The notes under the pieces: generated by a model
Seen by the model: only the letters and a program-made list of their open reading frames with translations
What the model was told of the DNA's origin: nothing
Database searches by the model: none
In this document: positions 20,552 to 38,740 of the stretch, in pieces
Position numbering within the stretch: position 1 is the stretch's first letter
How the letters are laid out: each line of letters starts with the position of its first letter
Position numbers and translations under genes: made by a program
NCBI RefSeq assembly: GCF_000299935.1
Contig: NZ_AMRL01000005.1
Coordinates: 1-64,000 of the forward strand
Direction of reading: 5' to 3'
Length of the DNA: 64,000 nucleotides
DNA from: Oceanibaculum indicum P24
GTDB lineage: Bacteria; Pseudomonadota; Alphaproteobacteria; Oceanibaculales; Oceanibaculaceae

Positions 20552-20657
20552 GACGCCTCCTCGTCATTTGCACTGCGGCTAATGTTGCAATGCAGCTGAT
20601 GAAAGCGTATTTCAACCAGTCCAGACGTTAACACGCTTTTTTCACGGGAGTCCGGTT

Positions 20658-21683: not shown

Positions 21684-21706
21684 TTACCGGCTGGCACCCA
21701 GACGCG

Positions 21707-21737
21707 AAAAGCCCCGCCAACTGGCGGGGCTTTTTTT
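21707..21737 (+). terminator. Rho-independent terminator after asd
   Basis: A GC-rich stem (AAAAGCCCCGCCA at 21707-21719 with its complement TGGCGGGGCTTTT from 21722) is followed by a run of seven T residues. It lies between asd and the convergent ialB-like gene, and because of the A run on the left it probably acts in both directions. Confidence 0.92.
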
Positions 21738-21752
21738 GGTCTAGATAAGAAT

Positions 21753-22304: not shown

Positions 22305-22624
22305 GTCGGTAACCTAAGCGAGAGCCCTATGCCCTGCCAACCCAGGATTGCCCCGGTTGGCCGTCAATTTGATGCCAGCTGGCTTCTAGGCGGCAAATCG
22401 AACTTTTTTGAGGCGGCCGGTAATCCGGCAACGCCACCGCCCCCGTATAAGTTTTCATGCAGGGACAAATTGACATCAGTCTGAAGCTTCGACGCGACCG
22501 CTCGCCGGCCAGCCCTGCCTTGTCCTGCTTTGTGGTTCCCTCGCTTGCAGGGATGGGCGGAAACCCCCTACATAAGGGGGCGGGCGTGGCACGGCCCGCA
22601 AAAGGGGGCGGCGAAGCCGGATCG
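22305..22624. other. intergenic region upstream of the ECF sigma gene
   Basis: A 320-bp gap. It holds a candidate ECF promoter at 22421-22453 and an in-frame extension of the sigma factor from 22457 that I reject because it is not sigma-like. I see no other gene. Confidence 0.5.
22421..22453 (+). promoter_or_regulatory. candidate RpoE-type (autoregulated) promoter
   Basis: TAATCC (22421-22426) and GTATAAGTT (22445-22453) are separated by 18 bp. This resembles the TGATCC / TAAG-type promoters used by RpoE of the ChrR class, with one mismatch in the -35 element. Such sigma factors usually transcribe their own operon. Confidence 0.4.
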
Positions 22625-23176
22625 ATGTCGGTAAAGACCCAGGAAGAACTCTTGATCGCCGTCGGGCGCAATCGTGACAGGGATGCGTTTGCGGCGCTGT
22701 TCTCGCATTTCGCGCCCCGGCTGAAATCTTTCCTGATGCGCCAGGGGACGGCGCCGGAAGGTGTCGAGGAACTCGTCCAGGAAGCCATGCTGATGGTTTG
22801 GCGCCGCGCCGAGACTTTTGATCCGTCGCAGGCCAGCGCCAGCACCTGGATATTCACCATCGCCCGCAACAAGCGGATTGATGCCCTGCGCCGCACGCGG
22901 CGGCCGGAACTCGACCCGGAAGACCCGGCGCTTGTGCCCAGCGCCCCGGCCGCTGCTGACGATGTGGTGTTCGAGACCCAGCGCGACGCGGTCGTGAAAC
23001 AGGCCCTGAAGACCCTGCCGCCAGAACAGGCGGACCTGTTGCGCCTTGCCTATTTCGAGGACAAGTCGCACGGCACGATAGCGGCCGAGAGCGGTATCCC
23101 AATCGGGACGGTGAAGTCGCGTATCCGACTTGCCCTGGCGAAGCTGCGCCAGAGCCTAGCAAGTGAGTTGATGTGA
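22625..23176 (+). CDS. ECF RNA polymerase sigma factor, RpoE (ChrR-partner) type
   Basis: A 183-residue ECF sigma factor. Region 2 is at about residues 20-85 (DAFAALFSHFAPRLKSFLMRQG, EELVQEAMLMVWRRAETFDP, STWIFTIARNKRIDALR) and region 4 at about 120-178 (LKTLPPEQADLLRLAYFEDKSHGTIAAESGIPIGTVKSRIR). The next gene encodes a ChrR-type anti-sigma that starts at its stop codon (TGATG). In Rhodobacter and Azospirillum such pairs control the response to singlet oxygen and carotenoid synthesis. The true start is the ATG at 22625; the frame is open further up but that part is not sigma-like. Confidence 0.92.
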   Translation: MSVKTQEELLIAVGRNRDRDAFAALFSHFAPRLKSFLMRQGTAPEGVEELVQEAMLMVWRRAETFDPSQASASTWIFTIARNKRIDALRRTRRPELDPEDPALVPSAPAAADDVVFETQRDAVVKQALKTLPPEQADLLRLAYFEDKSHGTIAAESGIPIGTVKSRIRLALAKLRQSLASELM

Positions 23177-23835
23177 TGATGTTTCATGTAAGCGAAGAAC
23201 ATCTGATGGATTATGCGGCGGGCACGGCGAGCGAGCCGGTCAGCCTGCTGGTTGCAACCCATCTGGCATTGTGCCCGGAGTGCCGGGCCAAGGTGGCCGA
23301 TTACGAGCGTATCGGTGGCGCGATGCTGGCGGACAGCAAGCCGGCCGACCTGACCGATGCGGCGTTGGACGCGGTGCTGGCCCGGCTCGACGAGGAGCCT
23401 GCCGATCTGCCCGCGCATAAGCCGGCAGTTCGCTATGACGAGACGACGCAGCGGATCCTGCCGGAGCCGCTGCGCTCCTATCTTGGCGATAATCTGAGCG
23501 CACTGCCCTGGCGCAACGTGACCCGGTCGCTGCAGGAGATCGAGCTGCCGATTGGCGACAGCGGCTACCGTACCCGTCTGCTGCGTATCAAGGCGGGGCA
23601 GGCGATGCCGGAACATACGCACGGCGGCAGCGAGATGACGCTGGTGCTGGCGGGCGGCTTCTCGGACGACACGGGTCATTACGGGCGCGGCGATGTCTCG
23701 ATTGCCGATGATGAGCTGGTGCACACGCCGGTGGCCGATGCCGGCGAGGATTGCATCTGCCTTGCCGTCACGGATGCGCCGCTGAAGCTGACCGGTCCGG
23801 TGGGGCGGATCATCAACCTCTTCATGCGCTATTAA
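23176..23835 (+). CDS. chrR: ChrR-type zinc-binding anti-sigma factor
   Basis: A 219-residue two-domain protein. The N-terminal anti-sigma domain has zinc ligands His4, His29, Cys33 and Cys36 (THLALCPEC); the C-terminal cupin has His147, His149 and Glu153 (EHTHGGSEM) and His183 (ELVHTP). The spacing of both sets matches that known for Rhodobacter sphaeroides ChrR exactly, so it very probably binds and inhibits the sigma factor encoded just upstream until oxidative signals release it. Possible starts are GTG 23173, ATG 23176 and ATG 23179; I used the ATG that overlaps the sigma stop by one base. Confidence 0.93.
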   Translation: MMFHVSEEHLMDYAAGTASEPVSLLVATHLALCPECRAKVADYERIGGAMLADSKPADLTDAALDAVLARLDEEPADLPAHKPAVRYDETTQRILPEPLRSYLGDNLSALPWRNVTRSLQEIELPIGDSGYRTRLLRIKAGQAMPEHTHGGSEMTLVLAGGFSDDTGHYGRGDVSIADDELVHTPVADAGEDCICLAVTDAPLKLTGPVGRIINLFMRY

Positions 23836-23843
23836 TTTCGCTA

Positions 23844-24509
23844 TCAGTTTCCGGCGCGGGCCAACAGTTCCTCGACCTTCGGCAGGATGCGCCCGACCAC
23901 CTCGGCGACTCCTTGCTCGTTAGGGTGGATGCCGTCCGGCTGGTTCAGCGATGGCTCCGTCGCCACCCCATCCAGGAAGAAGGGGTAGAACACCACGTCG
24001 TGCTTCTCGGCGAGGCGGTGGTAGGCGGCGTGGAAGGCCTCGGTATAGTCGCGCCCGAAATTGGGCGGGGCGTGCATGCCGGCCAGCAGCACGGGAATAT
24101 TTTCCTGCTTCAGCCGGGTCAGGATGGCATCGAGGTTGGCGTAGAGCTGTTCGACCGGCTGGCCGCGCAGCCCGTCATTCGCCCCCAGCTCGACGATGGC
24201 GGCATCCGGCTTTTCGGCCAGCGCCCAGTCCAGGCGGGCGAGGCCGCCGGTCGAGGTGTCGCCGGACATGCCGGCATTCACCACCCGCACCTGCTTTCCG
24301 GCAGTACGCAGGGTTTCTTCCAGCTGCGCCGGGAAGCTCTTGCCGTCGGGCAGGCCATAGCCCGCCATCAGGCTGTCGCCCAGGCCCAGGATGACGGTCT
24401 CCGCCCGCGCCGCCGTGCTGGTGAACAGCAGGGCGGCCAGCAGCGCTGGTATGATCAGTCCGTTGAATATCTTGCGCAGCGGGCCATATCCGGATTGGGC
24501 CTGCCGCAC
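23844..24509 (-). CDS. tesA: TesA-type SGNH esterase / thioesterase (arylesterase)
   Basis: A periplasmic SGNH hydrolase. It has a Sec signal peptide (LIIPALLAALLFTSTAARA), block I ILGLGDSLMAGYGL with the nucleophile Ser, block II AGMSGDTSTG, block III GANDGLRG, and block V DGIHPNEQG with the Asp and His. E. coli TesA of the same type hydrolyses acyl-CoAs and aryl esters. I chose the GTG at 24509, which gives a normal signal peptide; the frame stays open to ATGs at 24566 and 24614. It is divergent from the ABC genes ybbA-ybbP, the same arrangement as in E. coli. Confidence 0.9.
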   Translation of the reverse strand: MRQAQSGYGPLRKIFNGLIIPALLAALLFTSTAARAETVILGLGDSLMAGYGLPDGKSFPAQLEETLRTAGKQVRVVNAGMSGDTSTGGLARLDWALAEKPDAAIVELGANDGLRGQPVEQLYANLDAILTRLKQENIPVLLAGMHAPPNFGRDYTEAFHAAYHRLAEKHDVVFYPFFLDGVATEPSLNQPDGIHPNEQGVAEVVGRILPKVEELLARAGN

Positions 24510-24564
24510 TGCAGCAGCCCGGCGGTTTCCACAATCAGTCCCGGCAACAGCGCAGGCTTGCGAC

Positions 24565-25314
24565 ATGACAGCGCCCTCTTCCTCGGCTTCGGACTCGTCG
24601 CGCGATCCGATCATTCAGCTCGACGATGTGCGCCTTAACTTGAGAAGCGGGGCGGGCGAGGTCAACATCCTGCGCGGAATTGACCTCACCATCGCAGCGG
24701 GCGAGACGGTCAGCATTGTCGGTCCGTCCGGGGCCGGAAAATCCTCGCTGATGATGCTGATGGCGGGGCTGGAGCGCGCGACCGGCGGCTCGATCCGCGT
24801 TGCCGGCCATGATCTGGGCGGCATGAACGAGGACCGGCTGGCGCTGTTCCGCCGCGCCCATGTCGGGATCGTGTTCCAGGCCTTCCGGCTGGTGCCGACC
24901 ATGAGCGCACTGGAGAATGTCGCCATACCGCTGGAACTGGCCGGGGCGGCAGATGCGTTCGACCGGGCGGCGGAAGGTCTTGAGGCGGTCGGCCTCGGCC
25001 ATCGTACCGGCCATTATCCCGATCAGCTGTCCGGTGGTGAGCAGCAGCGCGTGGCGCTGGCTCGCGCTTTCGTTGCCGGCCCGTCGCTGCTGCTGGCGGA
25101 CGAGCCGACCGGCAATCTGGACGGCCATACCGGCGAGCAGGTCATCGAACTGATGTTCGACCTGAAGCGCCGCTTCGGCACCACGCTGGTTCTCATCACC
25201 CACGACCTTGATCTTGCGCGGCGCTGCCAGCGCACCATCCATCTTTCGGACGGCCGCATCGTCTCCGACGAGCGCGCGGGCGAGGCCAGCCTCGCCGCTG
25301 CGGCCGGGGGCTGA
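24565..25314 (+). CDS. ybbA: ABC transporter ATPase, YbbA/LolD-MacB type
   Basis: A 249-residue ATPase with Walker A GPSGAGKSS, the Q-loop FQAFRLVPTMSALENV, the signature LSGGEQQRVALARA, Walker B LLLADEPTGNLD and the H-loop LITHDLDLARRCQ. The EPTGNLD and ENV motifs are typical of the LolD/MacB/YbbA class. It pairs with the FtsX-like permease starting 2 bases after its stop. The function of YbbAP is not firmly established, with a proposed role in releasing lipophilic substrates. I chose the ATG at 24565; an upstream extension overlaps the divergent tesA and is unlikely. Confidence 0.9.
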   Translation: MTAPSSSASDSSRDPIIQLDDVRLNLRSGAGEVNILRGIDLTIAAGETVSIVGPSGAGKSSLMMLMAGLERATGGSIRVAGHDLGGMNEDRLALFRRAHVGIVFQAFRLVPTMSALENVAIPLELAGAADAFDRAAEGLEAVGLGHRTGHYPDQLSGGEQQRVALARAFVAGPSLLLADEPTGNLDGHTGEQVIELMFDLKRRFGTTLVLITHDLDLARRCQRTIHLSDGRIVSDERAGEASLAAAAGG

Positions 25315-25315
25315 T

Positions 25316-27850
25316 ATGCCAGTTTGGGGGATGCCAGTCTGGTTGCGCTTTGCCCGGCGCGAGCTGCGCGGCGGGCTGAAAGGCTTCCGCATCTTCCTCG
25401 CCTGCCTGATGCTGGGCGTGGCGGCGATTGCCGGTGTCGGCTCCGTCTCCGAATCGCTGCTGGCCGGCCTGCGCGCCGATGCCAGCCAGATCCTGGGCGG
25501 CAGTGTCGATGTCGAATCGGTGCACCGGCCGATCACGCCGGAGGCGCTGGCCTATCTGCAAACGCAAGGACGATTGTCGCATGTCGCCGACATGCGGGCG
25601 ATGGCGCGCAATCCGAACGGTGACCAGCGCTCGCTCTCCGAACTGAAGGCGGTGGACGGCGCCTATCCGCTCATCGGCGCCATGGAACTCGACCCCGCCG
25701 TGCCGCTGGAAGAGGCGCTCGCCAATCGCGGCGGCGTCTGGGGGGCGGTCATCGAACCCAATTTGCTCGACCGTCTGGGACTTGCTCTGGGTGACAGGCT
25801 CCGCGTCGGCGAGCTGGATGTCGAGGTGCGGGCCACGATCCTGCGCGAGCCGGACCGCGCGGTCAGCTTCGCCAGCTTCGGGCCGCGTGTGATGATCGCC
25901 CGCGACGCGCTGGAGGCGACCGGCCTTATCCAGCCTGGCACGCTGATCGACTATCATTACCGCCTCGTGCTGCCTGCCGGCACCGACCATGCCGCCTGGA
26001 TGCGGGACTTCCGCGACCGCTATGCCGCCGAGAATGGCTGGCGCGTGCGCGGCCTGAGCGAAGCGGCGCCGGGCCTGCGGCGCTTCATCGACCGGGTGGC
26101 GCAGTTCCTGACGCTGGTCGGGCTGACCGCGCTGCTGGTCGGCGGCGTCGGCGTCGGCAATGCGGTGAAGAGCTATCTGGACGGCAAATCCACCACCATC
26201 GCCACGCTGAAATGCCTGGGTGCCGAAGGCGCGGTGGTGTTCCGCACCTACCTGTCGCTGGTCATGATCCTGGCGCTGGCCGGAATCGCCGCCGGGCTGG
26301 TGCTGGGCGCGGCGCTGCCCTATGCTGCGGCGGCGGTGCTGAACCAGCTGATCCCGGTGCAGGTGGCGCCGGCACTCTATGCCGGTCCGCTGGCGCTCGC
26401 CGGCCTGTTCGGCCTGCTGACGGCGCTGGCCTTCTCGCTCTGGCCGCTGGCGAAGGCGAAGGACATCCGCCCGGCGGGCCTGTTCCGCCAGCTGGTCAGC
26501 GGCGAGGGCGGCCGGGTCGGCCTGCCCTATATCCTGGCGCTCGGCCTGTCGGCGGTGGCTTTGGCGGCGCTTGCCATCTTCTCCTCCAATGAGCGGGTGC
26601 TGGCCGGCTGGTTCGTGCTTGGCGCCATCGGTGCCGTCCTCATCTTCCTGGGGGCGGCGCGTCTGCTGATGCTGGGCGTCGCGGCGGCGGGGCGTCCGCG
26701 CCAGCCGACGCTGCGGCTGGCGCTGGCCAATCTGCACCGGCCGGGCGCGCCGACCGCCAGCATTGCGCTTTCGCTGGGGCTGGGCATCACCGTGCTGGTC
26801 GCGGTGGCGCTGACCCAGGCCAATATGGCGCGGCAGGTGACCGAGCAGTTGCCGGAGCAGGCACCCAGCTATTTCTTCATCGATATCCAGCCGAACCAGA
26901 TCGACCGCTTCCAGCAGACCGTCGATGCGGTGCCGGGCATCAGCAAGGTCGAACGGACGCCGATGGTGCGCGGCCGCGTCTCTGCCATCAATGGCGTGCC
27001 TTCCGACCAGGTGACCGTCGATCCGGAGGTGCGCTGGGTGCTGCGCGGCGACCGTGGCCTGACCTATGCCGCCGCCCCGCCGCCGGGAACGCAGATCGTC
27101 GCCGGCGACTGGTGGCCGGAGGATTACAAGGGGCCGCCGCTGATCTCCTTCGATGCGGAGATCGCCGCCGGCATGGGCATCGGCATCGGCGACACGCTGA
27201 CGATCAATGTGCTGGGCCGGGACATCACCGCGACCATCGGCAATCTGCGCCGGATCGACTGGGGCAATCTGTCGATCAACTTCGTCATCATCTTCGCGCC
27301 GGGCACGATGGAGGCTGCACCCCATACCATCATCGCCACGGTGAACACCGATGGTCCGGCGGCCGAGGAGGCGGTGCAGCGCGCCGTCACCGACGAGCTG
27401 CCGAATGTGAATGCGATCCGCGTGAAGGACGCGCTGGAGGCCGCGAACCAGATTCTGGAGGCGGTCGGGCAGGCGGTGCGGATCACCGCCTCGGTCGCCA
27501 TCCTCGCCGGCACGCTGGTGCTGGGTGGGGCGGTGGTCGCCGGCCATCACCGCCGGGTCTATGACGCGGTGGTGCTGAAGGTGCTGGGGGCGACGCGGCG
27601 CGACGTGCTGGCGGCCTTCCTGCTGGAATACGGCCTGCTGGGAGCGATGGTGGCGCTGATCGCCTCTGTCGTCGGCACCATCGTCGCCTGGGCGGTGCTG
27701 GTCTTCGTCATGCGTTCCGACTTCGTGTTCGCGCCCGGTGTCGTGATTTGGACATCATTGCTGTGTACGGTCATTACCGTCGCACTGGGTCTTGCCGGGA
27801 CCTGGCGGGCGCTGGGCCAGAAGGCGGCCCCGCTGCTGCGCAACGAATAA
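25316..27850 (+). CDS. ybbP: ABC transporter permease, FtsX-like, YbbP type
   Basis: An 844-residue permease with an N-terminal helix (GFRIFLACLMLGVAAIAGVGSVSESLL), a large periplasmic domain, a core FtsX block around residue 260 (FLTLVGLTALLVGGVGVGNAVKSYLDGKSTTIATLKCLGAEG), then a second periplasmic domain and a second FtsX block at the C-terminus (GTLVLGGAVVAGHHRRVYDAVVLKVLGATRRDVLAAFLLEYGLLG). Length and architecture match YbbP. The start is the ATG at 25316 (2 bases after the ybbA stop; ATG 25331 is also possible). It is probably cotranscribed with ybbA. Confidence 0.9.
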   Translation: MPVWGMPVWLRFARRELRGGLKGFRIFLACLMLGVAAIAGVGSVSESLLAGLRADASQILGGSVDVESVHRPITPEALAYLQTQGRLSHVADMRAMARNPNGDQRSLSELKAVDGAYPLIGAMELDPAVPLEEALANRGGVWGAVIEPNLLDRLGLALGDRLRVGELDVEVRATILREPDRAVSFASFGPRVMIARDALEATGLIQPGTLIDYHYRLVLPAGTDHAAWMRDFRDRYAAENGWRVRGLSEAAPGLRRFIDRVAQFLTLVGLTALLVGGVGVGNAVKSYLDGKSTTIATLKCLGAEGAVVFRTYLSLVMILALAGIAAGLVLGAALPYAAAAVLNQLIPVQVAPALYAGPLALAGLFGLLTALAFSLWPLAKAKDIRPAGLFRQLVSGEGGRVGLPYILALGLSAVALAALAIFSSNERVLAGWFVLGAIGAVLIFLGAARLLMLGVAAAGRPRQPTLRLALANLHRPGAPTASIALSLGLGITVLVAVALTQANMARQVTEQLPEQAPSYFFIDIQPNQIDRFQQTVDAVPGISKVERTPMVRGRVSAINGVPSDQVTVDPEVRWVLRGDRGLTYAAAPPPGTQIVAGDWWPEDYKGPPLISFDAEIAAGMGIGIGDTLTINVLGRDITATIGNLRRIDWGNLSINFVIIFAPGTMEAAPHTIIATVNTDGPAAEEAVQRAVTDELPNVNAIRVKDALEAANQILEAVGQAVRITASVAILAGTLVLGGAVVAGHHRRVYDAVVLKVLGATRRDVLAAFLLEYGLLGAMVALIASVVGTIVAWAVLVFVMRSDFVFAPGVVIWTSLLCTVITVALGLAGTWRALGQKAAPLLRNE

Positions 27851-27861
27851 GGGAGGCGGAC

Positions 27862-28134
27862 ATGCGCGTTCTGATACTGGCGGCCCTGCTTCTGACAGCT
27901 GCTGTCCCGCAGGCGCGCGCCGAGGAACCTTCCGGCAATCCGGTGGAGACGCTGCGCGAAGGGATGACGAAGGCGGTCGAGGCCCTGCGCGATCTTGCCG
28001 AGGAAGTGCAGCGCTATGGCGTCCCCTATTTCGACAAGGACGGCAACATCGTCATTCCGCGCAAGGTGCCGGATGAGGGTGTGCCCGATACCGCCGATAC
28101 AGGGCAAGCGGAGGCCCGCTCGATCACACTCTGA
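27862..28134 (+). CDS. small secreted protein of unknown function
   Basis: A 90-residue protein with a Sec signal peptide (MRVLILAALLLTAAVPQARAEE). The mature part is amphipathic, with an Asn-Pro-Val start and an acidic C-terminus (EVQRYGVPYFDKDGNIVIPRKVPDEG). It has no domain that I recognise. GGGAGG precedes the ATG and it lies 11 bases after ybbP, so it may be cotranscribed. The lanthipeptide precursor genes start about 100 bases later behind their own promoter, so a link to them is not indicated. Confidence 0.6.
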   Translation: MRVLILAALLLTAAVPQARAEEPSGNPVETLREGMTKAVEALRDLAEEVQRYGVPYFDKDGNIVIPRKVPDEGVPDTADTGQAEARSITL

Positions 28135-28173
28135 TCTGATCGCTGTCACCATTTTTTCTTAAAAAACAGTCAA

Positions 28174-28202
28174 TTGTCTGCATTTTCCGGTTGCGATATG
28201 CT
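28174..28202 (+). promoter_or_regulatory. putative promoter of the lanthipeptide operon
   Basis: TTGTCT (28174-28179) and TATGCT (28197-28202) are 17 bp apart; each matches four of six consensus bases. The start of transcription would be near 28209, 28 bases before the first precursor's ATG. An AT-rich tract, TTTTTTCTTAAAAAA (28152-28166), lies at about -57 to -43 and could act as an UP element. Confidence 0.5.
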
Positions 28203-28236
28203 GCCCGCCATCATTGGTTTGAGGGCGGAAATCATC

Positions 28237-28524
28237 ATGTCGCAGCAGAATTTCGAGAGCCTGAAGAAGAGTGTCGAAGCCGATCCGGCACTGGTCCAGA
28301 AACTGTCCGGCGTGAAGGAAGTGGGCGATGTCGCAGAGTTTCTGGCCGGCGTTGCCGCGCAGAAGGGCATTGCGCTGAATGCTGATCAGATCAAGGCACA
28401 GATGACGGCCAGCAAGGCCGGCCCGGACGACGAGCTCGACGATGCAGCACTGGAAGCGGTGTCCGGCGGCGGCTCGCCCTATTGCATGTTCACCAAGGGC
28501 TGCTACTGCATTTTCACCAAGTGA
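28237..28524 (+). CDS. lanthipeptide precursor 1 with Nif11-type leader
   Basis: A 95-residue RiPP precursor. Residues 1-78 form a Nif11-like leader: FESLKKSVEADPALVQKL, then the VAEFLAGVAAQKGIAL helix, and an acidic end DDELDDAALEAV just before the double-glycine SGGG. Cleavage after Gly78 would leave the 17-residue core GSPYCMFTKGCYCIFTK. It contains dehydratable residues Ser80, Thr86 and Thr94, and cysteines 83, 89 and 91. SPYC and TKGC are each spaced i to i+3, as in short lanthionine and methyllanthionine rings. The leader and core, the paralogue immediately downstream and the LanM gene after it together support a class II lanthipeptide. It starts at the ATG following GGCGGAAATCATC; the frame is open upstream to 28174 but that part lies over the promoter. 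Confidence 0.88.
   Translation: MSQQNFESLKKSVEADPALVQKLSGVKEVGDVAEFLAGVAAQKGIALNADQIKAQMTASKAGPDDELDDAALEAVSGGGSPYCMFTKGCYCIFTK
28387..28488 (+). repeat. 102-bp tandem-duplicated segment, copy in precursor 1
   Basis: This segment encodes residues 51-84 of precursor 1, which are identical in precursor 2 (28709-28810). By my count the two differ at 6 of 102 nucleotides and all six are third-position, synonymous changes, while the rest of the two genes diverges much more. It covers the last third of the leader, the cleavage site and the first six core residues. Confidence 0.8.
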
Positions 28525-28558
28525 CGGTAGGCCAAAAAAGCCGACAGGGAGGAAGGTA

Positions 28559-28867
28559 ATGGCAAATCAGGCATTCGAGGCGCTGAAGGCAGCCGTGAAG
28601 TCGGACAAGGCACTGCTCGACAAGCTGTCCGGTCATAAGGAAATGGGCGACGCCGCCGAGGCGCTGGCCGGCATCGCCAAATCGAAGGGCATCGATATCT
28701 CCGCCGAGCAGATCAAGGCGCAGATGACGGCCAGCAAGGCCGGCCCGGATGACGAGCTGGACGATGCCGCGCTGGAAGCGGTGTCCGGCGGCGGCTCGCC
28801 CTACTGCATGACCACCAAGGGCTGCTATTGCATGTGCACCGGCAAGTTCACCGAAAACTGGTTCTGA
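28559..28867 (+). CDS. lanthipeptide precursor 2 with Nif11-type leader
   Basis: A 102-residue paralogue of precursor 1. The Nif11-like leader (FEALKAAVKSDKALLDKLSG...EALAGIAKSKGI) ends in the same acidic stretch and SGGG; residues 51-84 are identical to precursor 1. The core after Gly78 has 24 residues: it starts GSPYCMTTKGCYCMC and then continues for nine residues to the C-terminal Phe102. It offers Ser80, Thr85, Thr86, Thr94 and Thr98 for dehydration and Cys83, 89, 91 and 93 for ring formation, one more cysteine than precursor 1. Strong ribosome binding site (GGGAGGAAGGTA before the ATG at 28559). It lies 34 bases after precursor 1 and 23 bases before the synthetase gene. Confidence 0.88.
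   Translation: MANQAFEALKAAVKSDKALLDKLSGHKEMGDAAEALAGIAKSKGIDISAEQIKAQMTASKAGPDDELDDAALEAVSGGGSPYCMTTKGCYCMCTGKFTENWF
28709..28810 (+). repeat. 102-bp tandem-duplicated segment, copy in precursor 2
   Basis: The second copy of the segment described for precursor 1; it encodes the same 34 residues with 6 silent differences. This pattern fits either recent gene conversion or strong selection on the leader end and cleavage site. Confidence 0.8.
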
Positions 28868-28890
28868 GCCCGTATTTCCTTGCCGCCTGA

Positions 28891-31653
28891 GTGACAAAGC
28901 CGTTCGAGGATATCCTCCGGCCGCTGTGCGACAGTGCGCTGGAGGAGTTTAATCTGGCCACGGAAGTGTCGGGGGTGGACGCGACAGTCGGGCGGGTGGT
29001 GTGCGAGGGCCTGCGTCCCTTCCTGCTGGAACGGCTGTGCACCCTTGCAGCGCCGGTTCTGTTCGCGGCGTTCGACAAGGCCCGTCCCGCGCCGCCGCCA
29101 ATCTCTCTCCTGCTCGACGAACCGCCGGAGGATGTGTCCCGCACCACCTACGCAGCCTTTGCCGCTGGCATGGAAGCTGGCGGCCTTGATGATTTGCGGT
29201 GTTTTTACCCCGGCCTCGACACGGCGCTGACCCTTCTCATCGAGCATCATTCCGCCACCGCGCTGGAGCTGGCGGTGCGGCTGCAGGCGGATCGCGCCGC
29301 CTTGCGCGGCTTCATGCCAGGCTGGGCGGAAGGCGTGCCGGCGCTTTCGTCTATCGGGTTCGGTCTGTCCGATCCGCATGCGCAGGGGCGCATGGTTGCC
29401 AGTATCGACTTCGCGGACGGTACCAAGCTGGCCTACAAGCCACGCTCGCTGGCGGCGGAGGCCGGATTCGCCGGTGTGCTGCGCTGGCTGGCGGTGCGCA
29501 ATCCCGCCTTGCCGGATCAGCGCCTGCCGCGCGTGCTGGATCGCGGCACGCATGGCTGGATGGAATGGGTCACCCCCGCCGATAGCCGCGACGAAGGCGA
29601 GGTGGCGGCATTCTACCGCCGACTCGGCATGCTGATGGCGGTGCTTGGCCTGATGCGCGGCACCGATATCCATTCCGAGAACCTGATCGCGGCGGGCGCC
29701 TATCCGGTCATCGTCGATCTGGAATGCCTGCTGGCGCCGGACGCGATGCCAGACTGGCTGAAACGCCTGTCCGACCCGCCGCCCTTCATGGAGAGCGGGC
29801 TGCTGCCCTTCCTGCTGCCGCTGGGTGAGGGGCAGTGGCGCAATATCGGTTCCGGCGGGCCGCCGCTGCCGCCGGTGCCGCTGCCGGATCACGGCTTCCG
29901 TCATACTGGCACCGACTGGATTCGCCGCGCGGACATTCTGCGCCAGCCGGAGGAACCTTGCCTGCCGCGCCTTGGCGGCGCGGAGCAGGATATACGCGCG
30001 CATCTGCCGGCATTGCAGGAAGGCTACCGGCAGGCGTTGGAGGCAATGCTGGCGCAGCGCGCCGATTTTCTCGCTGAAGATGGGCCGCTGGCCGGTTTTG
30101 CCGATGCGCGCTGCCGTTTCGTCGCACTGCCGACGGACTCCTACCGACGGCTGCTGGTCCGGCTGCGCGAGCCGGACATGATGGCCATGCCCGACGCGGT
30201 GGAGCGGCAGGCGGCGCGCATCGCCCGTCCGGCCCTGCCGGGTATCGCGGAGGCCGACTGGCAACGGCTGCTGGCGGCAGAGGCGGCGGCGCTCGGCCGG
30301 GGAGATGTGCCGGCCTTCCTGTTCAGCCCGTCCGAGGGCATCCTCTCCGAATCCGCTGGCGCGCCGGTCGGAAGGCTGGGCGACCGGTCGCCGCTGGAGG
30401 CGGCAAGGCAGGCCATAGGGGGGCTGGACGAAAAGACGTTGGCGCGACACACGGCCATCCTGCGCGGCGCCTTTGCCCCCACGCCTCTGCCTGTGGAGGG
30501 CGATCTGCTGGACCGGCTGGCGGGGTGGCTGGCGGCGGGAGCGATTCCGCGCGGCGATGGCGGGGTGGACTGGCTGCGCCCGCATGAGGAATTGCCGATT
30601 TCGTTTCGCGTCGCCGGCCACGGCCTCTACCACGGCAGTGCCGGTATCGCGCTGGCGCTGGTGGCGGCTGGCCGGCACCGGGGGCGGTCTGACTGGCTGA
30701 ACCTTGCGGCCAAGGCGCTGCTGCCACTGCGCCATCTCGCGGCGGATGGGACAGCGCAATCGCTGGCGCAGGCGTTCGGTGCCGGTCATGCGGTCGGCCT
30801 GGGCGGCATGATCGCCGCGCTGGTCTGGGCCGGCGATCTGCTGGAAGAACCCGGTTATGTCGCGAATGCGCAGGCACTGGCGGACCGGTTGGGTGATCCG
30901 GCGGCGGTCTCCTCCTTCGACTTCTATGACGGTATCGCCGGGCTGTTACCGGCGCTGCACCTGCTGGCACGCCGGACCGGGAATGCCGCGCTGCCCATGC
31001 TGATGGCGCGCTGGGCGGACCGGCTGCTCGCCTTGGCGACGGAAGATGAGGACGCACTTCTCTGGCGTCCCCGGCGCGGTCAGCCGGTGGCGGGGCTGGC
31101 GCATGGCCAGTCCGGCATGGCGGTGGCGCTGGCCTCTGCCTTCAACGCGACGGGACAGCAGCGCTATCTCGCGGCGGCACAGGCCGCCCTGCTACCGGAG
31201 GACCGGCTGTTCAATGCCGATACGGGCAACTGGCCGGACCCCAACGGGAAAGGTCGCCCTTCGACCGCCTGGTGCCATGGCGCGCCGGGTGTGGCGCTGG
31301 CGCGCGCGGCGTTGCTGAGGCTGGCGCCGGAGGGCTTCGCGGAGCGCCGGACGGAGCTGGCACGGGCGCTCGCAACCACCGCTGCCGATCCCGCCGGGGA
31401 AGCCGGCGATCTGTGTTGCGGGCTGGCTGGCCGGTTGTCCGTGCTCGGGCTGGCCGGGGTGGAGGATACGGCGCTGGCGGAAGCGGCCCGGCTGCGCTGG
31501 TCCGGTGACAGGCCGGGCCTGTGGAGCGACGCGCTGCCCTTCGCGGCGCCCGACCCCTGCCTGTTCAAGGGCGTGGCGGGGATCGTCCTGGCGCTGGTGC
31601 AGGCGGAGGTGCCGAAACTGGCGCCGCCCGTCCTGCTCCCCGCGCTGGGTTAG
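28891..31653 (+). CDS. class II lanthipeptide synthetase LanM (CCG-type)
   Basis: A 920-residue bifunctional enzyme that would phosphorylate and eliminate Ser/Thr and then add Cys thiols to make lanthionine rings. The N-terminal dehydratase (about residues 90-500) has GTKLAYKPRSL (Lys183), RGTDIHSENLIAAG (Asp259, His261, Asn264) and VIVDLECLL (Asp276, Glu278) of the kinase-like active site. The C-terminal LanC-like cyclase (about 570-915) has HGLYHGSAGIALAL, AHGQSGMAVAL, WCHGAPG (Cys795) and DLCCGLAG (Cys842, Cys843). In most LanC domains the last ligand pair is Cys-His; here it is Cys-Cys, so zinc is held by three cysteines as in ProcM. The GTG start directly follows an in-frame TGA, so no earlier start exists, and no clear ribosome binding site is visible. 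The stop overlaps that of the convergent aldo/keto reductase by 4 bases. Confidence 0.93.
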   Translation: MTKPFEDILRPLCDSALEEFNLATEVSGVDATVGRVVCEGLRPFLLERLCTLAAPVLFAAFDKARPAPPPISLLLDEPPEDVSRTTYAAFAAGMEAGGLDDLRCFYPGLDTALTLLIEHHSATALELAVRLQADRAALRGFMPGWAEGVPALSSIGFGLSDPHAQGRMVASIDFADGTKLAYKPRSLAAEAGFAGVLRWLAVRNPALPDQRLPRVLDRGTHGWMEWVTPADSRDEGEVAAFYRRLGMLMAVLGLMRGTDIHSENLIAAGAYPVIVDLECLLAPDAMPDWLKRLSDPPPFMESGLLPFLLPLGEGQWRNIGSGGPPLPPVPLPDHGFRHTGTDWIRRADILRQPEEPCLPRLGGAEQDIRAHLPALQEGYRQALEAMLAQRADFLAEDGPLAGFADARCRFVALPTDSYRRLLVRLREPDMMAMPDAVERQAARIARPALPGIAEADWQRLLAAEAAALGRGDVPAFLFSPSEGILSESAGAPVGRLGDRSPLEAARQAIGGLDEKTLARHTAILRGAFAPTPLPVEGDLLDRLAGWLAAGAIPRGDGGVDWLRPHEELPISFRVAGHGLYHGSAGIALALVAAGRHRGRSDWLNLAAKALLPLRHLAADGTAQSLAQAFGAGHAVGLGGMIAALVWAGDLLEEPGYVANAQALADRLGDPAAVSSFDFYDGIAGLLPALHLLARRTGNAALPMLMARWADRLLALATEDEDALLWRPRRGQPVAGLAHGQSGMAVALASAFNATGQQRYLAAAQAALLPEDRLFNADTGNWPDPNGKGRPSTAWCHGAPGVALARAALLRLAPEGFAERRTELARALATTAADPAGEAGDLCCGLAGRLSVLGLAGVEDTALAEAARLRWSGDRPGLWSDALPFAAPDPCLFKGVAGIVLALVQAEVPKLAPPVLLPALG

Positions 31654-32696
31654 AGAACCGGCATCGGCTCCTCGTTCAGGATCGCCTCGATGCCCTTCAG
31701 CACCGTGTCCGACAGGGCAACATCGGCGCTGCCGATATTCTCGGCCAGCTGCTCGACGCTGGTGGAGCCAATGATGTTCGCGGTCACGAAGGGCCGGCTG
31801 TTCACATAGGCCAGTGCCATATGCGTCGGGCTGAGGCCGTTTTCCTTTGCCAGCGCCACCAGCTTCTCGGTCACCGCCATCGGCTTCGGCGCGATATAAC
31901 GGCCATAGCGCGAGAAATACCGGTCCATGCGCGAGCCCTGCGGAATCGCACCGCCGAGATATTTGCCGCTGAGCGCACCCATGGCGAGCGGCGAGAAGGC
32001 GAGCAGCCCGACATTCTCATGGATCGCCATTTCCGACAGGCCGATCTCGAACGGCCGGTAGAGCAGGCTGTAGGCATTCTGGATGCTGACAACGCGCGGC
32101 AGGTTCAGCTGCTCTGCGGCGCGCAGAAAGGCATGCACGCCCCAGGGCGTCTCGTTCGACAGGCCGACGGCGCGCACCTTGCCGGCTTTCACGATCTCGG
32201 CCAGCGCCTCCAGCGTCTCCTCGATCGGGGTGGCGCCGGGCGATTCCTTGTGGACATAGCCGAACTGGCCGGCGGTGTTGGTCTGCCGGTCGGCCCAGTG
32301 CAGCTGGTACAGATCGACATAGTCGGTCTTCAGCCGGCGCAGCGAATCGTCGATGGCCTGATGGATATTCTTGCGGTCCAGCTTCGCCTGGCCGCCCCTT
32401 ATATGCTCAAAGCCCTTGCGGCTGGCGCCCACCACCTTCGTCGCCAGCACGAACTTGTCGCGGTTCTTGCGGGCGGTGATCCAGTTGCCGACGATTTCCT
32501 CGGTGGCACCATAGGTCTTGCCGCTGGGCGGCACCGGATACATTTCCGCCGTGTCGATGAAGGTCACGCCGTGATCCAGCGCGTAATCGAGCTGGGTATG
32601 CCCCTCGGCCTCGGTGTTCTGTTCACCGAAAGTCATGGTGCCGAGGCAGATGACGCTGACCTCGATGTCGGTACGGCCAAGGCGGCGCTTTTCCAT
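31650..32696 (-). CDS. aldo/keto reductase (Tas-like)
   Basis: A 348-residue NADP-dependent (beta/alpha)8 oxidoreductase. The catalytic tetrad is visible as Asp and Tyr in FIDTAEMYPVPP, Lys in VLATKVVG and His in LYQLHWADR. RRLGRTDIEVSVICLGTMTFGEQNTEAEGHTQLDYALDHGV and the long loop before the GNWITARK segment are typical of the Tas/YghZ branch. The substrate is unknown. I chose the ATG at 32696, ten bases after GAGGAG; a GTG at 32714 is in frame. It converges on LanM with overlapping stops and is probably unrelated to it. Confidence 0.9.
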   Translation of the reverse strand: MEKRRLGRTDIEVSVICLGTMTFGEQNTEAEGHTQLDYALDHGVTFIDTAEMYPVPPSGKTYGATEEIVGNWITARKNRDKFVLATKVVGASRKGFEHIRGGQAKLDRKNIHQAIDDSLRRLKTDYVDLYQLHWADRQTNTAGQFGYVHKESPGATPIEETLEALAEIVKAGKVRAVGLSNETPWGVHAFLRAAEQLNLPRVVSIQNAYSLLYRPFEIGLSEMAIHENVGLLAFSPLAMGALSGKYLGGAIPQGSRMDRYFSRYGRYIAPKPMAVTEKLVALAKENGLSPTHMALAYVNSRPFVTANIIGSTSVEQLAENIGSADVALSDTVLKGIEAILNEEPMPVL

Positions 32697-32915
32697 GGCG
32701 GATGGTCTCCTCACGGGATGAAGGCTGGCACGTCGGTACGGAAGGTCCGGCGCGGTAAGTCGGTATCCGGTATAGCGGCCTGAGGGCGGGTTGCAAGCGC
32801 CGAGAAAGCGGCGCGCCCTTAAATCGGCCTTCTGCGGTCCTATATCTATTGAAGCCGTGGAGCAATTCGCCTACATCAGATGCAGTTTGCGTCCACCGCA
32901 TAGCAGAGGGAAGCG

Positions 32916-33659
32916 ATGGATACTCAAAAGCAGTATATGAACCGGGCGGAAGCACTTTCGGCGGACATCGATGCCGGGCTTCGCGCCCATATGCTCAAGG
33001 TTTACAACTACATGGCCAGCGGCCTGGCGCTGACGGGTATCGTCGCCTACGCCGTCGCGCAGATGGCCGTGGAGAGCTGGAGCCCGCTGGCACTGACCGA
33101 TCTGGGCATGACGCTGTATGCCTCGCCGCTGAAGTGGGTGGTGATGCTGGCGCCGCTGGCCTTCGTGTTCGGCCTGTCGATGGGCATCAACCGCATGTCC
33201 TACGCCACGGCGCAGATGGTGTTCTGGGCCTACGCGGCCGTGATGGGTCTGTCGCTGTCCTCGATCCTGCTGGTCTTCACCGGCGAGAGCGTGGCGCGCG
33301 TGTTCTTCATCACCGCCGGCATGTTCGCCGCGACCAGCCTGTACGGCTACACCACGAAGCGTGACCTGTCGCGCCTCGGCTCCTTCATGTTCATGGGGCT
33401 GATCGGCATCATCATCGCGTCGGTGGTCAACATCTTCGTCGGTTCGACGGCGCTGCAGTTCGCCATCTCGGTGATCGGCGTCATCGTGTTCACCGGCCTG
33501 ACCGCCTGGGACACGCAGCGCATCAAGGAACTGTATGTCGAGCTGGACGGCAGCGAGATCGCCGGCAAGAAGGCGCTGATGGGCGCGCTGTCGCTGTACC
33601 TGAACTTCATCAACATGTTCGTCATGTTGCTGCAGCTGTTCGGTACGCAGCGCGAGTAG
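32916..33659 (+). CDS. Bax inhibitor-1 / YccA family membrane protein
   Basis: A 247-residue protein with seven hydrophobic helices. The N-terminal cytoplasmic part (MDTQKQYMNRAEALSADIDAGLRAHMLKVYNYMASGLALTG) is the family's usual opening, and helix 6-7 includes FVGSTALQFAISVIGVIVFTGLTAWDTQRIKELY with the conserved Asp. Such proteins are pH-dependent calcium channels or modulators of membrane proteases (YccA inhibits FtsH). GAGGGAAGCG precedes the ATG. Confidence 0.93.
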   Translation: MDTQKQYMNRAEALSADIDAGLRAHMLKVYNYMASGLALTGIVAYAVAQMAVESWSPLALTDLGMTLYASPLKWVVMLAPLAFVFGLSMGINRMSYATAQMVFWAYAAVMGLSLSSILLVFTGESVARVFFITAGMFAATSLYGYTTKRDLSRLGSFMFMGLIGIIIASVVNIFVGSTALQFAISVIGVIVFTGLTAWDTQRIKELYVELDGSEIAGKKALMGALSLYLNFINMFVMLLQLFGTQRE

Positions 33660-33686
33660 CAGACCGCCCAATAAGACGAATGGGAA

Positions 33687-33722
33687 GGGGCCGTCCGGAT
33701 ATCCGGGCGGCCTCCTCTTTTC
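33687..33722. terminator. bidirectional terminator
   Basis: A stem with one G-T pair (GGCCGTCCGGAT at 33689-33700 with ATCCGGGCGGCC at 33701-33712) is followed by TCCTCTTTTC. It lies between the convergent BI-1 and phhB genes. Confidence 0.7.
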
Positions 33723-33731
33723 GGGCGGTGC

Positions 33732-34016
33732 TCAGAGGCTGTCGATGAAGCGCGCCAGCTTCAGGTCGCGCGCGCTGATCCCGCCGGCATCATGCGTCGT
33801 CAGCGTAATCTCCACCCGGTTATAGACGTTCGACCATTCCGGGTGATGATCCAGCTTCTCGGCCATCAGGGCGATTCTTGCCATGAAGCCGAAAGCCTGA
33901 TTGAAATCGGCGAATTTGAAGCTGCGGGCGATTGCGGATCGCCCCTCAACCCGCCGCCATCCCGCCAGTTCCTTCAACGCCGCGTCGATTTCCGTATCCG
34001 TCAGTCGCTGTACCAT
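33732..34016 (-). CDS. phhB: 4a-hydroxytetrahydrobiopterin dehydratase (pterin carbinolamine dehydratase)
   Basis: A 94-residue enzyme that dehydrates 4a-hydroxytetrahydropterin, recycling the cofactor of aromatic amino acid hydroxylases. It has the family motif [33 protein letters not shown], with the three histidines. No phenylalanine hydroxylase gene is present in the window. Confidence 0.93.
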
Positions 34017-34108
34017 CCGAAAAGACCTCCATGGCTGCTTCCAAACTCCTGAAATTCCCCGTCGGCGCCAGCTTGGCGGCCCAGCCCGGGCGCGCTATCG
34101 TCGATCAC

Positions 34109-34510
34109 ATGAAGACACCGATCCACACCACGGCACCCAGCCTTGAGGATATCGAGGAGATGGCCCTGGCCGCGCTGCAGGTCATCCCCGATCCGCTGCG
34201 CCAGCATGTGCGCGATGTGCTACTGCGGATCGAGGATTTCCCCGACGAGGATACCGAACTGGAGATGGGGGTGGAAACGCCCTTCGATCTGCTGGGCCTC
34301 TATCGCGGCGTGGCGATGACCAACCGCAGCCTGCTGGACGTGCCGCAGGATGTGGACATGATCTTCCTCTACCGCCGGCCGATCCTGGATTACTGGTGCG
34401 AGACCGGCGAGGATCTGCAGGACATCGTGCGCCATGTGCTGATCCATGAGATCGGCCATCATTTCGGCTATTCCGACGAGGATATGGAAGCCATTGAGGA
34501 GCAGGACTGA
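34109..34510 (+). CDS. minimal zinc metallopeptidase (DUF1025 family)
   Basis: A 133-residue protein with the zinc-binding motif HEIGHHFGYSDEDM at the C-terminus, preceded by RRPILDYWCETGEDLQDIVRHVLI. This is a zincin-like minimal protease family common in bacteria; the biological substrate is unknown. The ATG at 34109 gives the usual start (MKTPIHTTAPSLEDIEEMALAAL); an in-frame ATG at 34031 adds 26 residues that look less typical. Confidence 0.88.
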   Translation: MKTPIHTTAPSLEDIEEMALAALQVIPDPLRQHVRDVLLRIEDFPDEDTELEMGVETPFDLLGLYRGVAMTNRSLLDVPQDVDMIFLYRRPILDYWCETGEDLQDIVRHVLIHEIGHHFGYSDEDMEAIEEQD

Positions 34511-34579
34511 GGGGCGCTCTCGCGCTTTTCTGGCGAGACGACCGTTTTCCTGCCATGCTTTGCCTCTATCTCATGAGGC

Positions 34580-35338
34580 ATGACGCGCTTGGTCCAATCC
34601 CGCTCCTGCCATTGTCTGCTGCTGGTCCTGCTGGCGCTTGGCCTGCTGCTGCCGTCCCGCGCGGCGCGGGCGGAGATTCCCGTCGATCTGCAGCTCGTGC
34701 TCGCCATCGACGCTTCCTCCTCGGTCGATTTCGACGAATTCAACCTGATGGCCAACGGTCTGGCGCACGCCTTCCGCGACGAGCGCGTGAAGCAGGCCAT
34801 CTCCAGCGGCGCGCTGGGGGCGATTGCCGTCACGGTGGTGCAATGGGCCAGCGCGGGCACCAACGCCCAGCATGTCTCCGTGCCCTGGCAGCTGGTCGAT
34901 AGTCCGGCAGCCTCCGAGGCACTTGCCGATACGCTGCAGATGATGCCGCGCGATGTGGATGGCGGCGGTACCTCCATCGGCAATGCCATCCGTTATGCGT
35001 CACGGCAGTTCCCGGCCGGCCCCTATCGCGGGCTGCGGCAGGTGATCGACGTGTCGGGGGATGGCATCGACAATGGCGTCGATCCGGTGCGCGAGGCACG
35101 CGACGAGGCGGTCGGGCAGGGCATCACCGTGAATGGCCTTGCCATTCTGAACGAGGAAAAGAATCTCGACCGGCACTATCAGGATTATGTCATCGGCGGG
35201 CCCGGTGCTTTCGTCATCGATGCCGCCGACTATGCCGACTTCTCCCGCGCCATCCTGCAGAAGCTGATCCGCGAGATCAGCGACGTGCCCATCGCCCGGA
35301 ATGATCGGGTGCCTGCCGCTATCCTGGCCGCGCGCTAG
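34580..35338 (+). CDS. von Willebrand factor A-like protein (DUF1194)
   Basis: A 252-residue secreted protein with a signal peptide (CHCLLLVLLALGLLLPSRAARA). The mature part starts IPVDLQLVLAIDASSSVDFDEF, the MIDAS metal-binding DxSxS of a vWA domain, and includes GGGTSIGNAIRYA and VIDVSGDGIDNG. DUF1194 proteins are common in alphaproteobacteria and their role is unknown; a metal-dependent adhesion or sensing role is plausible. Its 3' end overlaps the convergent DUF1045 gene by 4 bases. Confidence 0.88.
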   Translation: MTRLVQSRSCHCLLLVLLALGLLLPSRAARAEIPVDLQLVLAIDASSSVDFDEFNLMANGLAHAFRDERVKQAISSGALGAIAVTVVQWASAGTNAQHVSVPWQLVDSPAASEALADTLQMMPRDVDGGGTSIGNAIRYASRQFPAGPYRGLRQVIDVSGDGIDNGVDPVREARDEAVGQGITVNGLAILNEEKNLDRHYQDYVIGGPGAFVIDAADYADFSRAILQKLIREISDVPIARNDRVPAAILAAR

Positions 35339-36036
35339 ATCTTGCTGAGCGGGAAATAGCGCGTCAGCAGGAAGGGTGTCTCCCGGCTGTCCTGGCGGAA
35401 CAGGGCGACCGCCTCAACGCGCAACGGCTCGGCTGCGAAACGCGCCACCATCGGCTCCAGCGCCTGACGGAAGGCGGCTCGCTCAGCCTCGTCGGGCAGG
35501 CGGCAGGTCAGCGTCAGGTGGAAGCGGAACTGGTCCATCACATAGGGATAGCCCCAGCGCACCAGCATCTCTTCCTGCCGGTCGCTCAGCCCGGCGGCGC
35601 GCCGCTTCGCCAGCTCCGATTCCGTGGCCGGCGCGCGGAAACGGTCAAGCGCGGTAACGGCGGCGGCGGCCAGCGTGTCGATCTCCGGCGATGGCGTGGC
35701 GCATTGCAGGGCCAGGAAGCCCGACAGCTCCTTCAGCACCAGCGGTGGCGCGATAAAGGGGCGCAGCTGTGCGGCGAACCGCCCGACGCTGCTGACAAGC
35801 TGCGCCTCCGTCGCCTTGGGATGCAGCCGGAAGGGCGGCTTCAGCGTGCCGTGGAAGCCGTAATGCCGGGCATCGCTGGTGACGTTGGCGAGGCGCGCCG
35901 GCGTGACGCCGGCCACCGCCGGCTGTTCGCGCAGCGCGCCGCTGACGGCATCGCGCCCCAGCCAGCGGCAGCCGAAACGGTACAGGTCACTGTCCTCGGG
36001 CGGGCAGTAATACAGGGCGTAGCGGGGATCGCTCAT
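35335..36036 (-). CDS. DUF1045 family protein (2H phosphoesterase fold)
   Basis: A 233-residue protein starting MSDPRYALYYCPPEDSDLYRFGCRWLGRD. It has the two H-x-T motifs HGTLKPPF and HLTLTCR of the 2H phosphodiesterase superfamily. DUF1045 genes are often near phosphonate-utilisation genes, but none is present here. Its ATG overlaps the stop of the upstream DMT transporter gene by 4 bases, so the two are probably one operon. Confidence 0.87.
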   Translation of the reverse strand: MSDPRYALYYCPPEDSDLYRFGCRWLGRDAVSGALREQPAVAGVTPARLANVTSDARHYGFHGTLKPPFRLHPKATEAQLVSSVGRFAAQLRPFIAPPLVLKELSGFLALQCATPSPEIDTLAAAAVTALDRFRAPATESELAKRRAAGLSDRQEEMLVRWGYPYVMDQFRFHLTLTCRLPDEAERAAFRQALEPMVARFAAEPLRVEAVALFRQDSRETPFLLTRYFPLSKI

Positions 36037-37040
36037 GTGGGGCGGGTCTTCAGTCTGTGGAATTGTGCCTGGGCGACGCCGGCCAGCACCACCAGCCCAC
36101 CGATGATCTGGCCGGTGGTCGGGATGGCGCCGATCAGCATCGAGATAAGCACGGCGAAGATCGGCAGCAAGTTCATATAGAGGGCAGCCACCGGCACGCC
36201 GACGATGCCAATGCCGCTATGCCACAGGAAGGTGCCGAACAGGGTGGGCAGCAGCGCCACATAGATGAGGCCGACCACGATGGTCAGCGGCGGCAGCGCG
36301 TCGGGCAGCTGGGCGATGCCGGCGAGGCAGAGCAGGGGATAGAGCAGCACCATGCCGGTGCCCGCCGCCGTCATGGTGAAGCCGGTGATCTGCAGCTGCG
36401 AATAGCCGGCCAGCCAGCGCTGTGCGAAGACCGAATAGCTGCTCCAGCAGATCATGCCGCAGACCAGCAGCACCTCGCCCAGCACCGGCACGCGGTGATC
36501 CTGGCCCGGCCCCGCTGGCTCGCGGCTGAACACGGCGATCAGCCCGCCGGTGACGGCGAAGGCCATGGCCAGCCACATTTCCCGGCCGGGACGGGTGCCG
36601 CTGATGATCCAGTTCACCAGCGTCGCCACGACGGGCGAGCAGGTGGCGATGATGGCCGCGGAGATCGGTCCGGCGAAATAGATGCCCGAGGAATAGAACA
36701 GCGCGAAGCCCAGCACGCCGGGGATGCCCAGGATTGCGATCCGGCGCAGTGGAAAGCGCGCCGGGATGCCGGCATCTGCCTCTGCATCCTTCGGCGGGGC
36801 GGGGCGGAAGGGCTGCGCCGTCGAGAGGGTGAGCCAGCACATCGCCACCGGAATCAGGATCAGGTAGCGGAACAGCGCCACGGTCCAGACATCCAGCGTG
36901 CCCAGCAGCACATCCAGCACCGGGATGTGCGATCCCCACAGGATTGCCACGCCCAGCAGCAGCATGTTGGCAAACAGAACGCGGCCGAGCGGAAGGTCCG
37001 CCCGGCCGCTGCCTGTCACCGGATTTGGGGTTTCGGTCAC
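36033..37040 (-). CDS. DMT superfamily (EamA) transporter
   Basis: A 335-residue inner-membrane protein with about ten helices in two EamA repeats (first repeat from LLLGVAILWGSHIPVLDVLLG, second from GEVLLVCGMICWSSYSVFAQRWLAG). Transporters of this family export amino acids and metabolites; the substrate is unknown. The stop overlaps the DUF1045 start by 4 bases. Its start codon lies only 10 bases after the stop of mmsA on the same strand, so mmsA, this gene and DUF1045 may form one transcript. Confidence 0.88.
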   Translation of the reverse strand: MTETPNPVTGSGRADLPLGRVLFANMLLLGVAILWGSHIPVLDVLLGTLDVWTVALFRYLILIPVAMCWLTLSTAQPFRPAPPKDAEADAGIPARFPLRRIAILGIPGVLGFALFYSSGIYFAGPISAAIIATCSPVVATLVNWIISGTRPGREMWLAMAFAVTGGLIAVFSREPAGPGQDHRVPVLGEVLLVCGMICWSSYSVFAQRWLAGYSQLQITGFTMTAAGTGMVLLYPLLCLAGIAQLPDALPPLTIVVGLIYVALLPTLFGTFLWHSGIGIVGVPVAALYMNLLPIFAVLISMLIGAIPTTGQIIGGLVVLAGVAQAQFHRLKTRPT

Positions 37041-37050
37041 GTCCCCCGGA

Positions 37051-38550
37051 TCATTTCATCGTCGGCATGATGAATTCGGCGCCGGAGCGGATGCCGGTCG
37101 GCCAGCGCTGGGTGATCGCCTTCATGCGGGTGTAGAAGCGCACGCCTTCCGGCCCGTGCATGTGGTGATCGCCGAACAGCGAGCGCTTCCAGCCGCCGAA
37201 GGAATGGAAGGCCATCGGCACCGGGATCGGCACATTGATGCCCACCATGCCGACCTTGATCTGGCTGGCGAATTCGCGCGCGGCATCGCCATCGCGGGTG
37301 AAGATCGCGGTTCCGTTGCCGAATTCATGGTCGTTGACCATCTTCACCGCGCTTTCATAGTCCGGCGCGCGCACGACGGAGAGGACAGGGCCGAAAATCT
37401 CCTCCTTGTAGATCGTCATGTCGGTGGTGACATTGTCGAACAGGCAGCCGCCCATGAAGAAGCCGTTCTCATAGCCCTGCAGCTTCAGGTCGCGGCCATC
37501 GACCACCAGCTTGGCACCTTCCTTCACGCCCTGATCGACATAGCCGCGCACCTTCTCCAGATGCTGGCGGGTGACCAGCGGCCCCATCTCCACTTCCTTG
37601 TCCATGCCGGGGCCGACCTTCAGCGAGCGCACCTTCGGCGTCAGCCGGTCGATCAGCGCATCGCCCACCTTGTCGCCGATGGCGACGGCGACGGAGACCG
37701 CCATGCAGCGCTCACCGGCGGAGCCGTAGCCCGCGCCCATCAGCGCGTCTGTCGCCTGGTCGAGATCGGCGTCGGGCATGACAATCATGTGGTTCTTCGC
37801 GCCGCCCAGCGCCTGCACGCGCTTATTGTGCGCGGTGCCGGTGTGATAGACATATTCGGCGATCGGGGTGGAGCCGACGAAGCTGACCGCCTCGATGCCC
37901 GGATGGGTGAGGATCGCGTCCACCGCCTGCTTGTCGCCGTGCACGACGTTGAACACGCCGTCCGGCAGGCCCGCTTCCTTCAGCAGCTCGGCCAGGATCA
38001 GACCGGCCGAGGGATCGCGCTCCGACGGCTTCAGGATGAAGGTGTTGCCGCAGGCAATCGCCACCGGGAACATCCACATCGGCACCATGGCCGGGAAATT
38101 GAACGGGGTGATGCCGGCGACCACGCCCAGCGGCTGGCGGATGGTCCAGGCGTCGATGCCGCCACCCACCTGCTCGGTATATTCGCCCTTCAGCAGCTGC
38201 GGAATGCCGCAGGCGAACTCGACCACTTCCAGGCCGCGCGTCACCTCGCCCTGCGCGTCGGGGAAGGTCTTGCCATGCTCCGCGGTGATCGCGGCGGCAA
38301 GCCGGTCCATGTTCTTCTCGATCAGTTCCTTGAACTTGAACATGACGCGCGCGCGGCGCAGCGGCGTGGCGGCGGCCCATGCCGGGAAGGCGGCCTGCGC
38401 GGCTGCGACGACCTTGTTCACCTCGGCCGGGGTGGCCAGCGGCACGCGGGCCTGCACCTCACCGGTCGCCGGGTTGAACACGTCGCTGAACCGGCCGCTC
38501 GTGCCGTCCAGCGGTGCGCCGTTCACATAATGCTGCAGCGTCTTGGTCAT
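37051..38550 (-). CDS. mmsA: methylmalonate-semialdehyde dehydrogenase (CoA-acylating)
   Basis: A 499-residue aldehyde dehydrogenase. It converts methylmalonate or malonate semialdehyde to propionyl- or acetyl-CoA in valine, pyrimidine and inositol breakdown. [52 protein letters not shown] and the catalytic Cys in [11 protein letters not shown] are typical of MmsA. GGAGGAACCCCC precedes the ATG at 38550; the longer open frame upstream is not aldehyde dehydrogenase-like. No other valine-catabolic gene is next to it. Confidence 0.96.
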
Positions 38551-38740
38551 GGGGGTTCCTCCGAGTTGTCGTGACGCCGGGTCCGATCCGGGGATCGCCC
38601 TGCGGCCTGCCTGTTTGACTGTCCGGGCTTGGTTATAGCGCCCCATGATGGGGAAGAACAACGGGCCGATAAGCACCGTTTGGCGATCCGCGGCAAACCG
38701 CCTTATCCTGCAAAGAAAGAACGAACCGGGAGAGGACGCC

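Follow-up and report, generated by a model that had tools for sequence, protein, structure and literature searches.

We found that the window, by which we mean the whole 64,000-base stretch of DNA analysed here, carries a three-gene locus that very probably yields two related class II lanthipeptides through a LanM synthetase, followed by export through an NHLM system. LanM enzymes, Nif11/NHLP leaders and NHLM exporters are already known in alphaproteobacteria; what stands out here is an unusual mode of evolution, with a core that is conserved between lineages while leader and synthetase diverge.

As the initial annotation had claimed, the locus consists of three genes that all lie on the + strand and encode precursor A (95 aa, 28237..28524), precursor B (102 aa, 28559..28867) and LanM (920 aa, 28891..31653), with intergenic gaps of 34 bases between A and B and of 23 bases between B and LanM. 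The start previously given for the first precursor (28174) is merely the first TTG of the frame and was replaced by ATG 28237, on the basis of the homologues and of a ribosome-site-like stretch, GAGGGCGGA. For precursor B the start is ATG 28559, preceded by GGAGG, and for LanM it is GTG 28891, a GTG start being common to its homologues. A promoter scan of the locus returned zero matches, and terminator matches at the locus did not exceed chance level. Judged by its sequence, the gene set for lanthionine peptides is real and apparently intact, and its assignment as a class II lanthipeptide locus was supported by the LanM model score, by the retention of catalytic residues and by the constant association of the precursor with LanM.

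The window LanM scored 482 bits against TIGR03897 (cut-off 304) and has a DUF4135 domain (PF13575, residues 106-478, 29206..30324, + strand) as well as a LANC_like domain (PF05147, residues 577-910, 30619..31620, + strand), which together exclude a chance match and bear out the earlier description of a full-length enzyme, with a dehydratase fused to a LanC-like cyclase. Its solved relatives by sequence, LicM2 and CylM, both align over the catalytic sites. CylM and LicM2, which are CHG-type cyclases of Gram-positive lantibiotics, share this dehydratase and cyclase architecture and the conserved catalytic residues with the window LanM, but their leaders and cores are unlike those of the window locus. 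All mapped CylM catalytic residues were present in the alignment: D161, H163, K183, D259 and H261 of LanM correspond to CylM D252, H254, K274, D347 and H349, and N264, D276, E278, R409 and T415 to CylM N352, D364, E366, R506 and T512; most of these ten CylM residues have been mutated or discussed (PMC4550811). The cyclase has the zinc motifs WCHG and CCG, and its zinc ligands C795, C842 and C843 are present; the second motif (GDLCCGLAGR) is of the CCG form typical of ProcM-like enzymes (PMC10783134). Every mapped catalytic residue is kept, which speaks against the grouping with inactive relatives that the initial annotation had named as a refutation, and LanM would be expected to form (methyl)lanthionine in precursors A and B.

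In a class sample of 385 alphaproteobacterial genomes, LanM was found over the cut-off in 8/385 and the precursor in 6/385, which supports the rarity claimed for the class. The locus is thus unusual for an alphaproteobacterium as far as its frequency in the sample is concerned, but LanM and Nif11/NHLP systems were already on record there (PMC2887384; PMC12328550). The six precursor-bearing genomes comprise three Oceanibaculum and three of another family, f34, and LanM adjoins the precursor in all of them (6/6). An additional locus occurs in Azospirillum sp. TSO22-1, where one contig holds the precursor together with an NHLM exporter and the C-terminal portion of LanM, and a second contig the rest of LanM; consequently, no precursor homologue without LanM, which had been posed as a refutation, was found in the six sampled genomes or in Azospirillum. 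The genome that holds the window measures 3.95 Mb, and in the congener G003 the locus lies on a 5640-base contig, at coordinates that match those in Oceanibaculum pacificum MCCC 1A02656. No precursor relative was found in plasmid or viral collections.

Several observations concern related genes in other genomes. In all three f34 genomes a regulator gene lies directly upstream of LanM (L050 10747-11487, L052 6833-7543 and L053 6543-7283), that of L050 having an ArsR/SmtB-type HTH match; no f34-type regulator was seen beside LanM at the Oceanibaculum loci. Two of the three f34 genomes (L049, L051) have a second, longer CCG-type LanM of ~1095 aa that is 31% identical to the window LanM. In genome G348, a LanM-like frame (L054 8090-10882) aligns without several dehydratase residues and keeps the CCG cyclase motif; since the N-terminal half of LanM is matched by another frame, this gene may be split or frameshifted. 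A match in Lachnospiraceae (L004) showed 35% identity.

Precursors A and B, at 73% identity, are clearly homologous to each other, and they are homologous to all the other precursors as well. Support for leaders of Nif11 type was less strong than initially claimed: B scored 33.2 bits against TIGR03798 (cut-off 32.3), but A remained below that cut-off (26.9 bits) and both were under the cut-off of the Pfam Nif11 model (16 vs 23.8); seven homologous precursors that were scored reached 16-31.5 bits against TIGR03798 or gave no match. We regard the Nif11 label as fair but marginal. The double-glycine site described before a Cys/Ser/Thr core was recognised, as VSGG/GSPYC and VAGA/GSPWC, and cleavage is predicted after GG from the C39 rule and from the GA/GSP form in family f34. 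Predicted core A, GSPYCMFTKGCYCIFTK (28471..28521, + strand), contains three Cys and three Ser/Thr, and predicted core B, GSPYCMTTKGCYCMCTGKFTENWF (28793..28864, + strand), four Cys and five Ser/Thr. All ten intact precursors align over a S-P-[YW]-C-x-x-T-x-G-C-Y-C-x-x-T core, in which the ring-forming residues S80, C83, T86, C89, C91 and T94 are invariant in the 10 precursors of three lineages; the count is exactly three Cys and three Ser/Thr in A-type cores, and four of each in O. pacificum B. We propose that LanM would bind the Nif11-type leaders of A and B, phosphorylate the core Ser/Thr and eliminate the phosphate, and that its CCG-type cyclase would close the thioether rings. In the simplest pattern, core A would acquire three four-residue rings (S-P-Y-C, T-K-G-C and C-I-F-T) and core B the same three rings and one more.

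Both the window and O. pacificum have two adjacent precursors, of which the second carries a conserved KFT[ED]NWF extension at its C terminus; this could be taken to indicate that A and B work jointly as a two-peptide lantibiotic. We consider this unlikely, given that the f34 and Azospirillum loci have one A-type precursor each and that the Oceanibaculum genome G002 has two A-type cores plus one Cys-free degenerate copy. The degenerate third precursor of G002 (L047 10948-11226, - strand) sits between the two intact ones and keeps its leader, with the Cys-less ESRDQNRRVEIIII in place of a core.

Returning to two related peptides made by one LanM, comparison between clades revealed a mean identity of 81% for the core, 39% for the leader (33% without its last 14 residues) and 38-50% for LanM, and no other equally long stretch of the precursor reached the mean identity of the core in the alignment between lineages. 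Between the window and Azospirillum, all 17 core residues agree although 6/16 compared codons differ, and identity falls to 35% in the leader and 40% in LanM. An identical core protein with differing codons, next to a diverged leader and LanM, is in keeping with purifying selection acting on the product and not with a recent transfer. In the phylogenetic tree, for which the two contig pieces of the Azospirillum LanM were joined, the LanMs from exactly the seven SPxC-bearing loci formed a single clade (100/100 support), from which we conclude that enzyme and product were probably inherited together.

In the window, we recognised neither a transporter nor a protease gene beside the precursors and LanM. 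The single C39 peptidase of the genome lies on contig C3 (L046), within an HlyD / C39-ABC / ABC2 / TolC cluster, where the HlyD, C39-ABC and ABC2 models were all over their curated cut-offs in profile searches. Moreover, the NHLM C39-ABC model was over its cut-off in 7/7 precursor-bearing genomes, and exporter and LanM are both missing from the congener G001, a pattern of joint presence and absence. Since the sole C39 peptidase belongs to this cluster and the exporter co-occurs with the precursor in all seven genomes, the NHLM exporter likely cleaves and exports A and B in trans: the C3 system (HlyD, C39-ABC, a second ABC and TolC) would cut the leader at GG and release the product. The locus is therefore compact, as initially described, in having three adjacent genes, but not in its export and leader removal, which probably depend on an unlinked cluster. 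The window genome shares these three exporter families with the NHLM/NHLP systems (TIGR03794/03796/03797; Haft et al. 2010, PMC2887384), and a LanM near leader peptides has been reported in Azospirillum sp. B510 (PMC2887384). In contrast to the window locus, however, the leaders of the B510 peptides are of the NHLP (nitrile hydratase) type, and identity between the B510 LanM and ours is only 27%; a further difference is that the exporter is unlinked to LanM in the window genome.

Six-frame HMM searches of the window genome detected one LanM and, spread over seven contigs, nine leader-like genes. Seven of the leader-like genes, on six contigs, have GG sites, Cys-free cores and no LanM beside them; they lie on C1 (4471, 223711), C6 (32744), C11 (20251), C18 (69843), C19 (49970) and C20 (39322), at loci L037, L042, L038, L040, L120, L044 and L043. 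The C6 gene, whose core ends in DPSKREFWLGF, recurs in G002 and G003 and is thus conserved throughout the three Oceanibaculum genomes that have LanM. These Cys-free peptides may be exported unmodified and could even be the main cargo for which the exporter is kept, and with such other cargo possible, the co-occurrence of the exporter is no proof that A and B are among its substrates.

The parallel drawn with prochlorosins was sound with regard to the CCG enzyme type and the leader family, but not with regard to the cores, which are conserved rather than hypervariable. The ProcM/SyncM systems of marine picocyanobacteria resemble the window genome in their Nif11-type leader, GG site, CCG LanM, HlyD/C39-ABC/TolC-type exporter and leader-bearing genes scattered in the genome. 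In prochlorosins, however, the leader is conserved and the core hypervariable (PMC10783134), whereas the window genome has only two Cys cores, which stay conserved between families despite diverging leaders and LanMs. Hence, although the CCG motif, the Nif11-type leaders and nine leader-like genes served by one LanM would suit a combinatorial system in which a promiscuous ProcM-type enzyme acts on many diverse scattered cores, we find this highly improbable: two Cys cores are conserved across families, and we rejected the nine genes as a prochlorosin-like library because the seven distant peptides lack core Cys, making lanthionine rings impossible.

The gene set is an accessory 3.6-kb cassette (28062..31650), as seen from a clean empty site in the congener G001, where both flanks are collinear with window positions 20005-28061 and 31651-39992 (86-90% identity) and only ~60 bases occupy the collinear site. 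No LanM, precursor, NHLM exporter or Nif11-leader gene was found in G001. That the locus is decaying and its product no longer made is scarcely credible, since the degenerate third precursor in G002 and the lack of the locus in G001 are outweighed by intact reading frames, fully retained catalytic residues and a core preserved with synonymous change.

With regard to function, we slightly favour a bacteriocin-like role over signalling, with low confidence; we recognised no immunity gene in the vicinity of this locus or at the others that were read. The conservation of what would be a secreted peptide suggests a fixed target or receptor. Neither this core nor any lanthipeptide of Oceanibaculum was the subject of a paper in our literature search, and an earlier mention of the exact core is possible; to our knowledge, few lanthipeptides have been characterised in Gram-negative bacteria.

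CCG-type LanMs are known as promiscuous enzymes with variable cores; a CCG clade whose core hardly varies, across lineages with LanMs that are only 38-50% identical, allows one to test whether the CCG motif implies promiscuity. The locus also offers a defined small peptide with three predicted four-residue rings and, probably, a conserved target in Gram-negative bacteria. More tentatively, it may belong to a dispersed alphaproteobacterial lanthipeptide/Nif11 secretion system, in which LanM, a fixed-sequence peptide, one trans-acting exporter and several unlinked Cys-free Nif11-leader peptides are gained or lost together, and in which the mature peptide, not the leader, is most constrained. If so, the strongest constraint would fall on the mature peptide, as expected for a signal or for the ligand of a conserved target.
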